Origin: Metabacillus halosaccharovorans
Lineage (GTDB): Bacteria; Bacillota; Bacilli; Bacillales; Bacillaceae
DNA length: 64,000 nucleotides
Direction: 5' to 3'
Assembly: GCF_002019635.1 (NCBI RefSeq)
Contig: NZ_KV917372.1
Coordinates: 2,028,290 to 2,092,289, forward strand
Below, in pieces: positions 11,698 to 62,525 of this stretch. The notes beneath the pieces are model-generated. The model was not told where the DNA came from and ran no database searches. It saw only the letters and a program-made list of their open reading frames with translations. Position 1 is the first letter of the stretch, and every line of letters begins with the position of its first letter. The position numbers were made by a program, and so were the translations under genes.

Positions 11698-12072
11698 CTT
11701 CTTATCTCTCAAGCATAAAGCTGGTGTGGCTTGCTGGATTTAGCACCTTGGCACTCGTGGAAGATCTTTCGTAAAATGTGTTAGCTTAATATTTACTTAT
11801 GAACTTAGAAGCTACTTAATTTGTTTAAGTGGGGTTTTTAAAAACACGCAAGTGCTTGCGGCTTGCGATGCAAGCCTGCGACAGATAATGAAAAATGCTT
11901 CGAACAAACAAAATCGCTTTGTTCGCTTCATTTTTCATCATCTGTCGGTGCTTTTAAAAACCAACATAGGTAGTTTCTAAGAAAATAAATATCAATCACC
12001 AGATCTTCACTCGTTATGAACCGGTTGCTGAGGCTTCATAGGGCCAGTCCCTCTGCCTCTCTTGATAAGAAA
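11698..12072 (-). ncRNA. SAM (S-box) riboswitch with an enlarged P3 arm
   Basis: The 5' half (RNA from 12071) contains the diagnostic CTTATCAAGAGAGGC, GGGACTGGCCC, TGAAGCCTC and AGCAACC; the 3' half contains GGTGCTAAATCC and the P1 return GAGAGATAAG. P1 pairs TTCTTATC with GATAAGAA; P2 pairs GAGGC with GCCTC; P4 pairs CAAGC with GCTTG. P3 closes with GAAGATCT/AGATCTTC but encloses about 233 nt instead of a short loop. The enclosed RNA is itself a nested hairpin: CTTAGAAGCTAC/GTAGTTTCTAAG, GGTTTTTAAAARCAC and its complement, then a 29-nt inner stem. It controls metI-metC by transcription attenuation. Confidence 0.93.
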
Positions 12073-16746: not shown

Positions 16747-19026
16747 ATGAATTCAGCAAAAATGAACGAATCAATCATCTCCTTAACACAATTACCTCAG
16801 CAGGAAATCCAAAGAATACATGAAGAATCCTTAAAAGAAGCTGTTGTTTGCAGGTGCTGCGGAAAACCGGTGAAGCTGTATTTAGGCATTAACCATCCTC
16901 CCTATTTTTATCACTCAAACAGAGAATTAAATGAAACATGCCAGAAGCAATTTCATATCGATTTTCCGCAGCAAGAAGAAACACCTACTCATGAAACAAC
17001 AACAGAGAACGACTCTGAGCACAATGGGTTTCGGTTACCAAAATCCAGAAGTATTGCTACAGCTGATAAAAAAGAAACAACAAAATGGCGTGAACCAAAA
17101 ACGCTAAAAGGGAGAACTCCTTTTTCAGTAAAAGTAAAAGCTCCTGCGTCCCTATTGGGCATTCCACTGGATGTGGAACAAAAAGAAGCTGTCACAACGA
17201 CTGAAGGACCTTTGCTTATTTTAGCTGGTGCCGGTAGTGGAAAAACACGTGTATTAACAACAAGAGCTTTATACATGATTGAAGAAAAAAAGATTTCACC
17301 TACATCGATGATGCTTGTCACCTTTACAGCAAAGGCCGCAAAAGAAATGCAGCAACGGCTTATTGCAAACTCTTCTGTCCAGGCTGCAAAGCTTAATCAA
17401 TTGGTCATTGGAACATTTCATAGTATCTTTTATAAAATCCTTATCCACCACGATCGTGAGAAGTGGAATAGCCGACACCTGTTAAAATGGGATTGGCAAA
17501 AGGAAAGCTATCTAAAAGCCTCCTGCAGAGAATTAGGAATTGTTGAAAAGGACTTTCCATTTGACCAAGCAATCCAACAAATCGGTTATTGGAAAAATAC
17601 AATGCAAATGCCCCAGTGTTTAAAGCCTGCTGATGATTGGGAGCAAACCGCACTCACTCTTTATAGAGAATACGAGGATCAAAAACAACAGCGCGGTCAA
17701 TTTGACTTCGATGATATGCTTGTAAAATGCTATGAGCTACTAAATGAAAATCCTGATCTTTTATCCTCTTATCAACAACGGTTTCAGTATTTTTTAATTG
17801 ATGAATTTCAGGATATTAATCCTGTCCAATATAAGCTTATTAAGCTATTATCAAGTCATACTAACAATCTATGCGGTGTCGGTGATGATGATCAAACTAT
17901 TTATAGTTTTAGAGGCAGTCAACCGTCATTTATTTTAAATTTCAAACAAGAATACCCATTAGCAAAAGTGATTACACTCTCTGCTAATTATCGTTCTGAT
18001 CATCAAATTGTCTCAACAGCAAATGATGTTATATCAAAAAATAAACAAAGACTCAGCAAGCAAATGATCGCTCAATATGAAACGCCACACTCACCTGTTG
18101 CTTTTTTTCCATATGATGAAGAGGAAGAAGCTACAATGATTCTGCAAGATATGAAGGAGAAAATTGAAGCAGGAGCAAAACCCGAAGAATTTGCCGTTTT
18201 ATATCGTACACATACAGGTGGACGAGCAATATTTGAACGATTTGTTCAATCAAGCATTCCTTTTACTATTGAAAAAGGACAATCATCCTTTTATGAAAGA
18301 AAAATAGTACGTGGTATTTTATCCTATCTTCGCCTAAGTATGAACTCTGATGACAGCTCCGCCATAACGGAGTTGATACGCGCTTTATTTTTAAAACAAT
18401 CGGTTCTCAATGATGTCAAAGCTTTATCCATCCTGCATGACTGCTCACTTGTTGAAGCTCTGCTGCATGTAAATGGACTGCCTGCATTTCAAAAAGCAAA
18501 GCTAAAGAAAATCATCCCAAGGATCAACTCTCTTCAGTATGAAAAACCGGCTGTTGCATTAACGATCATTGAAAAAGATTTAGGCTTTGTTGATTACTTA
18601 AAGAAGCAAGGTAATGAAGGAAATGCAATGGAAAAGGGCTCAGATGACTTGAATGATTTAAAGGTAGTTGCGAAGAAATTCATGACTGTTACTGATTTTC
18701 TCCAGCATGTTGACCATATGATTGTGACACAGCAATCATTAAAAACATCAACACAGGAATCCGGAGTCCAGCTTATGACGATACACCGGTCAAAAGGCCT
18801 TGAATTTAAATATGTCTATGTATTAGGTGTTGTCGACGGCTCTTTACCACATGATTTCGCTTTGGAGTCGGCTCGAAAGGAAAAGTTCGAACACCTTGAG
18901 GAAGAAAGAAGATTACTTTATGTAGCGATGACGCGGGCAAAAGAACATTTATATTTGTCTGTTCCCTCTTATCGGAGAGGTCGAAAGGCTGTCCCTTCCC
19001 GGTTTATACGAGGAATGATGAAATAA
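16747..19026 (+). CDS. yjcD: UvrD/Rep-family ATP-dependent helicase YjcD
   Basis: A 759-residue superfamily 1A helicase. Walker A AGAGSGKT lies at about 160-167, LVTFTAKAAKEM is motif Ia, DEFQDINPVQ is motif II, GDDDQTIYSFRG motif III, ANYRS motif IV, TIHRSKGLEFKYVYV motif V and LLYVAMTRAKEHLYL motif VI. All motifs look intact. The first 150 residues are an extension with a putative zinc finger (C35, C37, C38, then YFYHS and ETCQ) resembling the N terminus of CoiA. It probably unwinds DNA 3' to 5' in repair or recombination. Start ATG at 16747 behind GGGAGGAGG. A periodic TTGCA array and a terminator follow. Confidence 0.92.
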   Translation: MNSAKMNESIISLTQLPQQEIQRIHEESLKEAVVCRCCGKPVKLYLGINHPPYFYHSNRELNETCQKQFHIDFPQQEETPTHETTTENDSEHNGFRLPKSRSIATADKKETTKWREPKTLKGRTPFSVKVKAPASLLGIPLDVEQKEAVTTTEGPLLILAGAGSGKTRVLTTRALYMIEEKKISPTSMMLVTFTAKAAKEMQQRLIANSSVQAAKLNQLVIGTFHSIFYKILIHHDREKWNSRHLLKWDWQKESYLKASCRELGIVEKDFPFDQAIQQIGYWKNTMQMPQCLKPADDWEQTALTLYREYEDQKQQRGQFDFDDMLVKCYELLNENPDLLSSYQQRFQYFLIDEFQDINPVQYKLIKLLSSHTNNLCGVGDDDQTIYSFRGSQPSFILNFKQEYPLAKVITLSANYRSDHQIVSTANDVISKNKQRLSKQMIAQYETPHSPVAFFPYDEEEEATMILQDMKEKIEAGAKPEEFAVLYRTHTGGRAIFERFVQSSIPFTIEKGQSSFYERKIVRGILSYLRLSMNSDDSSAITELIRALFLKQSVLNDVKALSILHDCSLVEALLHVNGLPAFQKAKLKKIIPRINSLQYEKPAVALTIIEKDLGFVDYLKKQGNEGNAMEKGSDDLNDLKVVAKKFMTVTDFLQHVDHMIVTQQSLKTSTQESGVQLMTIHRSKGLEFKYVYVLGVVDGSLPHDFALESARKEKFEHLEEERRLLYVAMTRAKEHLYLSVPSYRRGRKAVPSRFIRGMMK

Positions 19027-19074: not shown

Positions 19075-19190
19075 ATGTTTGCAGACTTCCACTAGTTTTT
19101 TGCAGATTTCAAATTTTTTTTGCAAGTTTGACTTATATTCTTGCAAATTCTTAATCTATTTTGCAAAAGAGAGTTTTTTTTGCAGAACTT
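19075..19190 (+). repeat. Six-unit TTGCA array downstream of yjcD
   Basis: TGCA occurs at 19080, 19101, 19121, 19142, 19162 and 19181, i.e. spacings of 21, 20, 21, 20 and 19. Most units have a T run of two to eight before GCA and R-A/T-rich sequence after it (TTTGCAGATTT, TTTGCAAGTTT, TTGCAAATTC). It lies between the yjcD stop and a bidirectional terminator. An array of the same size, phase and orientation follows trpS. Confidence 0.85.
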
Positions 19191-19243: not shown

Positions 19244-19498
19244 TTATTTCTTATTTATCATTTTAGAAATCGTATTAAAATCCAATTTCTCATTTCCGTT
19301 AACAATAGAGTTAACGATTTTATCTTCCATTTGCTTGTTAACTGGTTTATTGGCAATCTTAGAAACTCGTTGAATGACGCTGCGTACTGTTTTTTCATCT
19401 TTAAAGTTTGCACCTTGTAATGAGTTAGCTAATGAGAAAATATCATTCATGTTAACGCCGGTTTTTCCTTCAAGATTCTTAAAGAATTTGCTATCCAT
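19244..19498 (-). CDS. spoVIF: Stage VI sporulation protein F
   Basis: An 84-residue protein matching the SpoVIF (YjcC) pattern: MDSKFFKNLEGKTGVNMNDI, the NFKDEKTVRSVIQRVSKIAN core and a DFNTISKMI end. In B. subtilis SpoVIF is made in the mother cell and stabilises GerE, so it helps late coat gene expression. That is consistent with the cotVWX-cotYZ cluster a few kilobases away. ATG at 19498 is preceded by AAGGAGG. It is soluble, has no cysteine and lies between two repeat regions. Confidence 0.93.
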   Translation of the reverse strand: MDSKFFKNLEGKTGVNMNDIFSLANSLQGANFKDEKTVRSVIQRVSKIANKPVNKQMEDKIVNSIVNGNEKLDFNTISKMINKK

Positions 19499-32162: not shown

Positions 32163-32184
32163 CATACATTTATATATCATGCTG

Positions 32185-32290
32185 TAATCCACTTCCCTAC
32201 GCTGGTATGAACCAGATCAGGTTATAAGGGTCTTAAAGAATCACTTTAATCTCAGCCCATTGTATAGGGCTCCCCTAGCGGTTGATTGCC
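32185..32290 (-). ncRNA. TPP (THI-box) riboswitch of the thiamine operon
   Basis: Minus strand carries CTAGGGGAGCCC, GGGCTGAGA, GACCCTT, AACCTGATCTGGTTCATACC and AGCGTAGGGAAGTGG, the complete set of conserved THI-element segments in order. The variable P3 arm is short (TTAAAGTGATTCTTTAA). Bound TPP would favour the downstream terminator and switch off tenI-thiO-thiS-thiG-thiF-thiD-thiE. Confidence 0.96.
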
Positions 32291-44113: not shown

Positions 44114-44150
44114 ATGAATAAGAAAGTAAAGAACTTTCACTTCCAAAATA

Positions 44151-44184
44151 AAAAGACCCTATACAAAGTAAAGGGTCTCTTTTA
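44151..44184. terminator. Second hairpin after spxH
   Basis: AGACCCT and AGGGTCT around 11 nt, followed by CTTTTA, with AAAA on the other flank. The remaining 270 bp to the next gene show no other feature except the small gene's promoter region. Confidence 0.65.
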
Positions 44185-44451
44185 TATGTCTTAACGACAA
44201 CAAAGGGGATGGGAGAAATTTTTCACGGTCAAACAAAGGGGTAAATGTTTGTTTGTGATTAATTTCACATCTATAATATATCAAAATGTGTCGACATTTG
44301 ACAAGTAAGATAGCTCCTTTTCACAAAAAATTCACATTCCAATGAGGTTTAGTTGCACTTCTCGATGACTTAACCTGTCTCAATTTTCATGGATAATTGG
44401 TTCACTGATAACATATAAAATACTAAGAATTAATTCTAAGGGGGATTACTC

Positions 44452-60150: not shown

Positions 60151-60167
60151 TATATAAAAAATAATCG

Positions 60168-61412
<1,245 letters not shown>

Positions 61413-61450: not shown

Positions 61451-61566
61451 TATTTTGCAGGGTTTCTATATAATTTTGCAAATTTTGCCGCTTTTTTGCA
61501 GAATCCTGTTAATTTTTTGCAAGTTTTTATTTTATCTTGCAAATTCCATGATATTTTTGCAAATCC
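61451..61566 (+). repeat. Six-unit TTGCA array downstream of trpS
   Basis: TGCA occurs at 61456, 61477, 61497, 61518, 61538 and 61558: spacings 21, 20, 21, 20, 20. Units read TTTTGCAGGGTTTC, TTTTGCAAATTTTG, TTTTTTGCAGAATCC, TTTTTTGCAAGTTTT, TCTTGCAAATTCC and TTTTTGCAAATCC. The orientation relative to the gene, number of units and placement before the terminator equal those at 19075-19190. Confidence 0.85.
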
Positions 61567-61576
61567 TATTAAACCT

Positions 61577-61613
61577 AAAAAAAACGATGTGAACCTATCA
61601 CATCGTTTTTTTA
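61577..61613. terminator. Bidirectional terminator between trpS and yjbA
   Basis: AAAACGATGTG-AACCTAT-CACATCGTTTT with T runs on both strands. Confidence 0.9.
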
Positions 61614-61631: not shown

Positions 61632-62384
61632 TCAATTAACCTTTGATTCATGCTCCATGTCCCAAAGCTTTTCAAAAAAGGGTTGTCCTTTTATTAGTCG
61701 TTCACATAGCTGAATATGCTTTGGAGACCAACCGTTTAATGTTTCTTCATAGAGCTGATTCCATACTTCATCAAATTCTCTTTGCTGAATATCCTCATAT
61801 TTTGTAGGGTTCCATTCAGTATACCAGTACTTCACTTCAGCAGCATTTTTTGTTGCCAGCAGCTGATCAAGCGCCATAAATAACAATTGCTTTAATTGGC
61901 GTTCTTTTCTTGTCAAGCCTCTCATATATTGTGGTGCTAAAGACAAAATATGATATTCCTTGTTTGATTCTTCTTTTATAATTTCTGTTGAATATGATTC
62001 AGGCTCAATATCTTTCACCATTTCAAATACCAATTGTTCTTGTCTTGGGATAATTCTGCTTTTTCGAATTGGAATGGTATAGCCAATTGTATCAACTGCT
62101 AAAATTCCAATTCCATCTGTCACAACAAAACAATAATCAAGTTGGATTCGCTCATGATTTTTACGAATATAAGCCTTTTGAAAAATATCTTTTAATAGAC
62201 CAGGTGGTAACTCCGATAAGTTGTTTTCTATGTAGTCGAATAGCATGGAATTTACCTTTAATAGAGGAACCTGATCAAGGAGTTCAACACTGTCATCTTT
62301 TCTCCATTCATGAAAATGACAGACATTGTATCCATTCTCTTCACCTTCAAACCAATTTACCCAAACATCATGAAGAAATAACAT
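61632..62384 (-). CDS. yjbA: UPF0736 family protein YjbA
   Basis: A 250-residue soluble protein of the UPF0736 family, with [60 protein letters not shown] and [20 protein letters not shown] typical. The ATG at 62384 (GAGGGG eight bases before) gives a length near B. subtilis YjbA; 36 upstream codons of open frame lack a site. No catalytic motif is recognised. It lies between trpS and yjaZ as in B. subtilis. Function unknown. Confidence 0.85.
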
Positions 62385-62525
62385 ATAAAAACCCCTCACT
62401 TCAGTACCATTTGTCAAACAGTATAGGCAAATTTTAGAGAATTTATTCCAATCTATGAAGATTATGCATTGTTTTTTCAGAAGTTTGAACATGTCCTAAC
62501 ACATTGTATGAAATTAGGCTTTTTT

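Follow-up and report, generated by a model that had tools for sequence, protein, structure and literature searches.

Among the described systems closest to the arrays reported here, REP/BIME elements are built of an imperfect palindromic REP unit and have as partner a Y1 (HUH) transposase, the RAYT (TnpA-REP), whose gene is flanked by the elements. Iteron and TnsB-type arrays consist of direct repeats of ~20 to 22 bp that are bound by one protein, at plasmid origins or transposon ends. BldC is described as binding cooperatively and head to tail to asymmetric direct repeats in variable number (PMC5859096), and RemA sites as AT-rich direct repeats with a period of 10 bp that lie upstream of promoters and are poorly conserved (PMC8481266). 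DNA-bound proteins are also described as roadblocks, some of them orientation dependent (PMC10310618), and the TAACTGA elements of the Beggiatoaceae as direct heptamer repeats, many before start codons (PMC4679880). Among the papers listed in searches of an open-access library, we found no report of arrays like those described below.

The window analyzed here is a 64,000-nucleotide stretch of the 5.40-Mb genome of Metabacillus halosaccharovorans (G000; other genomes and array loci are given as G and L numbers). The array at trpS is confirmed as real. Six TTGCA[A/G] boxes on the forward strand start at 61455, 61476, 61496, 61517, 61537, and 61557 (array 61455..61561), with steps of 21/20/21/20/20 and a mean step of 20.4 bp. 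The first box follows the stop codon (61410-61412) of the tryptophanyl-tRNA synthetase gene trpS (60423..61412, forward) by a gap of 42 nt, and a bidirectional intrinsic terminator (61577..61612, AAAAAACGATGTG..CACATCGTTTTTT, an A-run/hairpin/T-run) begins ~16 nt past the last box. This terminator separates trpS from a convergent ORF on the reverse strand (61632..62492), which has its 3' end towards the array and which we take to be YjbA-like from its location beside trpS; the T-rich strand of the array is oriented towards the terminator of this facing gene. The other array of the window (19079..19184, forward), with six TTGCA boxes at 19079, 19100, 19120, 19141, 19161, and 19180 in steps of 21/20/21/20/19, starts 52 nt past a stop codon, is followed by an inverted repeat and a T-run, and lies between the convergent ORFs 16747-19026 (forward) and 19244-19498 (reverse). 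A three-box pattern matched the window 9 times, against 0.01 matches expected, and none of 100 dinucleotide shuffles of the window reached 9 matches.

The first-pass annotation had described the trpS array with six units and these same steps, which were re-found at 61455-61561, and had given the two arrays identical spacing and a distance of about 45 to 55 nt from the stop codon. The six units hold for both, but the array at 19079-19184 ends with a step of 19 rather than 20 and begins 52 nt past its stop codon, versus 42 nt at trpS. An Rfam scan of the window also returned a T-box leader upstream of trpS (60162-60367, forward; RF00230, 147.8 bits), the RsaE/RoxS small RNA (44150-44268, reverse; RF01820, 105.3 bits), a TPP riboswitch (32177-32286, reverse), and a SAM (S box) riboswitch (11932-12071, reverse).

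Across the whole genome, the pattern gave 70 three-box matches (49 forward and 21 reverse) versus 0 for the reversed control pattern, and these matches make up 12 array loci. Among 13 arrays profiled, one per locus plus one from the relative G019, 11 have six boxes and two have five, with a mean step of 20.32 bp; the mean step was 20.88 bp both in G008 and G013 (19 arrays) and in G073 (7 arrays). The arrays had been said to be alike in the box only, but the repeat unit is longer than the box, with the profile TWWTYTTGCARNTTY in G000 and TAATYTTGCAACTTY in G008 and G013. The unit is an asymmetric site of ~15 bp, arranged as direct repeats every 20 to 21 bp, i.e., two helical turns, and within one array the units have their boxes in common but not their spacers. 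This ~15-bp unit had been missed by the first-pass annotation, as had the NERD-domain gene found beside arrays in several families (see below).

Two of the 12 loci carry tandem copies of a whole array at ~215 bp: L033 (2435-3403) has five and L040 (2438-2951) three, each repeat of ~213 to 216 bp comprising the whole array and a linker of ~107 bp. The 214-bp array-plus-linker unit of L040 matched units of L033, on another contig, over its full length, with 70 to 71% identity in two L033 copies. General copying of arrays was rejected, with this as the one clear paralogous pair: a test by unit order matched 0/135, 0/45, and 0/36 array pairs at p<0.01.

The arrays resemble BldC sites in their asymmetric head-to-tail direct repeats of variable number, and differ in that BldC repeats are described as 9 bp long and at promoters (PMC5859096), whereas those found here recur every 20 to 21 bp, mostly at gene ends. 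With RemA sites they share periodic AT-rich direct repeats over ~100 bp or more, but not the 10-bp period, the position before promoters, or the poor conservation described for RemA (PMC8481266). Like the TAACTGA repeats, they consist of short direct repeats that occur in numerous intergenic sets and are sporadic in distribution, although the heptamers are described as often preceding start codons (PMC4679880) and the arrays lie mostly at gene ends. The length of the direct repeat, ~20 to 22 bp, is that of iterons and TnsB-type sites, but no plasmid-origin or transposon genes were seen among the Pfam-scanned neighbors. The features of a CRISPR were not seen, since the conserved part spans 5 to 15 bp within a unit of 20 to 21 bp, and no cas genes were present among the 20 flanking proteins scanned in G000.

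We then compared the boxes with their surroundings in relatives. In the close relative G019, 11 of the 12 G000 arrays have an orthologous counterpart. In nine G000/G019 pairs, leaving out the two loci with tandem copies, mismatches affected 7/265 box positions versus 84/694 in spacers and 215/1621 in flanks (Fisher 1.7e-6 for boxes versus spacers), in a sample biased to intact boxes by the detection of G019 arrays through three boxes. The trpS locus is without this bias because it was fetched by the TrpS protein and not by the array, and it showed 0/30 mismatches in boxes versus 22/77 in spacers. Four more distant pairs had 10/120 mismatches in boxes, 107/307 in spacers, and 291/720 in flanks. 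Box change was four- to fivefold rarer than spacer change, which supports a constraint on the boxes of the kind expected for sites of protein binding. The claim of a real class of elements is supported and held up against its own refuting condition: instead of two isolated cases with no periodic box in related species, there are 12 loci in G000, at gene ends, with orthologues of 11 in G019 and boxes in relatives.

Downstream of trpS, fetched by its protein, boxes were present in five of 21 genomes in the genus: six in G000, six in G019, three in G005, five in G003 (the outer two TTGCG), and one in G020. G010 has a few GCAAAA-type boxes there in the opposite orientation, and no boxes were seen by eye within 240 nt past trpS in the other 15 genomes. 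Among the loci compared, G000 shares only two, the uvrB/GNAT locus and the NERD locus, with its distant relatives G008 and G013, and therefore most arrays come and go.

The three-box pattern was found in 80 of 150 genomes, G000 included, many of them with a single match of coding-like appearance. Of the 20 genomes of the genus other than G000, 15 had at least one match and 11 had seven or more; outside it, nine or more matches were found in 7 of 129 genomes (G024, G035, G073, G105, G114, G128, and G137). A class-wide search gave a match in 56/250 genomes. Related arrays with diverging boxes are patchy across Bacilli. By genus, the box reads TTGCAC[AC]G (G073), AATTGCACAGTA (G128), TAATTGCACG (G240), TTGCAGAA (G366), TTGCAGTCG (G333), TTGCACCG (G157), GGATATTTGCA (G290), AATCSCACGTTA (G124), TTTTTGCACGTTA (G132), and TTTTGCACAACTC (Rummeliibacillus), the core TTGCA being imposed by the search pattern except in G124, G132, and G105, for which ACGTT was sought. 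Some arrays also have conserved ends, namely CTGGAAAAATTATTCTCTTACTCAG, with small differences, 5' of five of the eight G240 arrays, and CC[TG]TGTCGAA 3' of all five G157 arrays. We set aside coding repeats that fitted the pattern, among them L149 (judged by eye), L335 and L352, within ORFs, and two loci of a set of eight further genomes.

Several side observations were made in these searches. A TGTCGAA/TTCGAC word, which we take to resemble a Spo0A box, is found a short way past the final box of arrays from several families, in varied orientations (L527-L531; L322, L324, L325, L330, L361, and L379). A Planctomycetota MAG (L075, L107, L118, and L146) has dispersed arrays of 6 to 7 TTGCAAAACG boxes at 21 bp, with a similar hairpin-like end at L107, L118, and L146, and in Mycoplasma bradburyae (L124, 6801) a tandem array at 21 bp, near perfect, contains TTTTGCACAAGTCA.

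An all-against-all comparison of 428 ORFs from 130 array loci revealed one ORF family at the arrays of several groups. Its proteins, 310 to 342 aa long where complete, have a NERD domain (PF08378), a zinc-ribbon-like CxxC..CxxC pair that is invariant in the family alignment A3, and an HTH-like C-terminal end. PF08378 scored 65.7 to 78.4 bits in six complete or near-complete rows and 22.6 bits in the partial L176, versus a cut-off of 22.1. The NERD residues D79, E92, and K94, present in all or nearly all rows, are presumably a PD-(D/E)XK nuclease motif with putative activity. For the HTH-like end, the best Pfam match was HTH_17 in one of seven proteins, below the cut-off (E 0.018); this weak likeness to HTH_17 is a further difference from BldC. 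A fold prediction was unusable (pLDDT 38), and solved structures gave chance-level matches only, mostly to the zinc-ribbon part.

A family HMM made from the 8 rows of A3 (Metabacillus, SA1-12, G132, and G290) was run over 563 sequences (3.77 Mb). It matched G000, G005, G008, G013, G019, G020, and G015 in Metabacillus, as well as Bacillus sp. SA1-12 (L176, frameshifted), G132, and G290, and, outside its own rows, G128, G333, G366, and G105 (frameshifted), at arrays. In Metabacillus, the array lies upstream of the gene, by 253 nt in G000, 254 in G005, 274 in G020, 96 in G008, and 97 in G013, as it does in G128 (86 nt) and G132 (64 nt). Arrays are found on both sides in G290 (67 nt upstream and 12 downstream) and G366 (134 upstream and 38 downstream), and downstream in G333 (50 nt) and G105 (~100 nt). 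The gene hence adjoins arrays in 6 of 13 genera (Metabacillus, G128, G132, G105, G290/G309, and G333/G366); an incomplete sampling of arrays did not show it in the other seven (G073, G137, G124, G240, G035, G157, and Rummeliibacillus), nor in G309, G012, G003, and G006. The family was present in 0/179 viral loci (1.68 Mb) and in 1/118 pattern-fetched genome loci (0.87 Mb), the one being L176, which has a real array. For seven adjacency cases, with G333 and G366 belonging to one genus, the Poisson p ranged from 3e-10 to 8e-5 under an assumed background of 0.15 to 1 chance neighbors.

The box and the protein may change together. At the syntenic locus of G015 the gene is present, with a protein 46% identical to that of G000 and 55% to that of G008, and the box before the gene is ATCTATCAACTTT instead of ATCTTGCAACTTT (TATCA for TTGCA). 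A short array there has AATCTATCAACTTT at 21 bp and ends with ATTCGACA, which also follows some TTGCA arrays. It is the only changed-box array in the G015 sequence examined, where a three-box TTGCA array is retained nearby. Because the G008 and G013 proteins have also diverged (56% and 54% identical to that of G000) and yet keep the TTGCA core, this co-change is one suggestive case and no more. The gene is absent beside its usual neighbor, the one locus considered, in G003, G002, and G006, which retain a few TTGCA arrays: the match counts are 9, 7, and 7, respectively, versus 70 in G000, 65 in G008, 57 in G019, 47 in G013, 35 in G020, and 15 in G005. G003 has TAATCTACCATTCGACA at that locus, and in these three genomes the gene could be at another genomic site. 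In G019, a stop codon interrupts the partner ORF, while the arrays are intact. The array-free G014 adds nothing either way, as the 400 kb examined contained neither the neighbor gene nor the family.

When the T-rich strand is counted as forward and ORFs are called mechanically, only 4 of the 12 loci in G000 lie between convergent genes and 8 lie between same-strand genes, so that the position between convergent genes, true of both window arrays, does not stand as a rule. The 31 arrays of G000, G008, and G013 comprised 19 tandem antisense, 2 tandem sense, 8 convergent, and 2 divergent cases; the 8 arrays of G073 (L335, within an ORF, excluded) comprised 2, 1, 5, and 0; and 50 loci of eight further genomes, after two lying inside an ORF and one on the edge of a contig were dropped, comprised 17, 12, 15, and 3. 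Overall, arrays lie at gene 3' ends, with 28 convergent versus 5 divergent. In 23/40 arrays (2/200 in shuffles), the facing gene has an intrinsic terminator within 130 nt past the array, versus 7/40 same-sense and 11/40 opposite-sense terminators within 130 nt on the other side. A polar post-terminator rule was rejected: the antisense orientation holds for 19 of the 21 tandem arrays of G000, G008, and G013, but the eight further genomes gave 17 versus 12 (p 0.46), and the antisense orientation is a local trend of those three genomes only.

With regard to the nucleoid-organizing role that the first-pass annotation thought possible, all 9 arrays of G013, a lone coding-like match at 4840 kb being left out, lie within 0.67 Mb of dnaA, and all 10 of G008 within 1.01 Mb. 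An origin-proximal centromere was rejected, as this clustering is not seen in G000, whose contigs C1 and C2 may lie in either order. On C1 of G000, near 1457 kb, lepA lies ~0.23 Mb from dnaA, with trpS on the other contig; in six relatives trpS is ~0.9 Mb from dnaA, and the G000 arrangement is a rearrangement or a misassembly. G002 gave 22 partial DnaA-family matches besides the true dnaA, many of equal score, and these extras are probably multicopy IstB-like transposon ATPases.

We lean towards reading the arrays as a dispersed element made of phased cognate sites of the chromosomal NERD/zinc-ribbon-like/HTH-like protein, with copies at gene 3' ends. One asymmetric ~15-bp site every 20 to 21 bp would be the predicted binding site of the NERD-domain protein, whose binding to the boxes we infer, and molecules of the protein would be aligned on a single face of the helix. 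Beside the partner's own gene, such binding may serve feedback control. Copies at the 3' ends of genes, in many cases directly after a terminator, would be tolerated there and have their boxes retained. The NERD domain may be active and take part in the spreading of arrays, and the bound arrays may affect readthrough transcription or act as insulators.

A rather unlikely alternative is that the arrays are bound by a different protein, host-wide and of RemA, LytTR, or BldC type, which sets up a boundary or an RNA polymerase roadblock just past terminators, the NERD gene being a frequent neighbor or one target. The excess of facing-gene terminators after arrays and the antisense orientation of 19/21 tandem arrays in three genomes fit such a protein, for which BldC (PMC5859096), RemA (PMC8481266), and the roadblocks (PMC10310618) are described precedents; however, the orientation rule failed as a forecast in the eight further genomes, a genome has no more than some dozen arrays, and the recurrent NERD neighbor would go unexplained. 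A defense nuclease with arrays as its operators or self-marking decoys, rather than mobile copies, appears improbable to us. It draws on a weak similarity to MAD6 (27.7 bits versus a cut-off of 460) and PglW (17.6 bits), proteins of defense systems, but these scores are low and cover mainly the NERD part, no defense genes were among the Pfam-scanned neighbors in G000, and the family had no match in the phage collection or viral contigs and, in the plasmid collection, none over its full length. A plasmid origin of the arrays was likewise rejected, the partner family being only partially matched, in 3 plasmids, and so was a phage origin, given the missing partner homologues and viral loci with only near-identical tandem or coding-like repeats; the viral locus L195 has five boxes with mixed steps.

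That the element acts as an RNA, with the T-rich strand transcribed and the boxes pairing or binding an RNA-binding protein, is very improbable. The array strand of five arrays, each folded alone, folded better than shuffles (z -3.0, -3.1, -2.2, -4.0, and -2.4) and the other strand less so (z -1.3, -0.8, -2.0, -2.0, and -1.2), but the self-complementarity of TTGCAA boxes is enough on its own to favor folding. Promoter-like sites upstream on the array strand were in weak excess at up to 3 mismatches (14/20 versus 45% in shuffles) but numbered 0/20 at up to 2. Covariation was not seen in two sets of three sequences (2 pairs versus 1.2 in shuffles, and 0 versus 0), and Rfam had no match at the arrays in the window and 13 loci. 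An RNA element was thus rejected for want of lasting support from Rfam, folding, or pair counts, and the RNA-binding or RNA-structure reading of the first-pass annotation, which was right in part, is the part that fell, also because both neighbors run opposite to the array in 19 of the 31 cases from G000, G008, and G013. A bent-DNA element was rejected as well, with no excess of predicted curvature over shuffles (mean z 0.74, 0.15, and 1.35 for 12, 19, and 7 arrays, computed from dinucleotide values). Functionless chance tandem repeats kept by slippage are scarcely credible; the local 215-bp tandem copies of L033 and L040 would suit them, but units of one array share boxes and not spacers, and the boxes resist change four- to fivefold more.

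Under the reading that we prefer, phased sites of the NERD-domain protein, the arrays resemble REP/BIME-RAYT systems in that both are short, scattered over the genome, and located at the 3' ends of genes, of species-specific sequence and patchy occurrence, with a chromosomal partner gene flanked by the elements, on both sides in G290 and G366 and on one side in Metabacillus, G128, G132, G333, and G105. They differ in that the boxes are direct, phased, and non-palindromic, with no covarying hairpin in the two sets of three sequences, and the partner is a NERD/zinc-ribbon/HTH-like protein with no Y1 transposase. We tentatively propose, as possible rather than probable, an undescribed two-part system of Bacilli, in which a NERD/zinc-ribbon/HTH-like nuclease and phased arrays of its own site, box and protein co-changing, would spread or maintain copies at gene ends and so shape transcription boundaries or chromosome structure. 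If this is true, a class of intergenic elements across Bacilli would gain a partner protein and become testable, a nuclease-type protein would gain a DNA target, and the spread and retention of non-palindromic repeats at gene ends would gain an example unrelated to REP-RAYT, in what would be an undescribed DNA-protein system.
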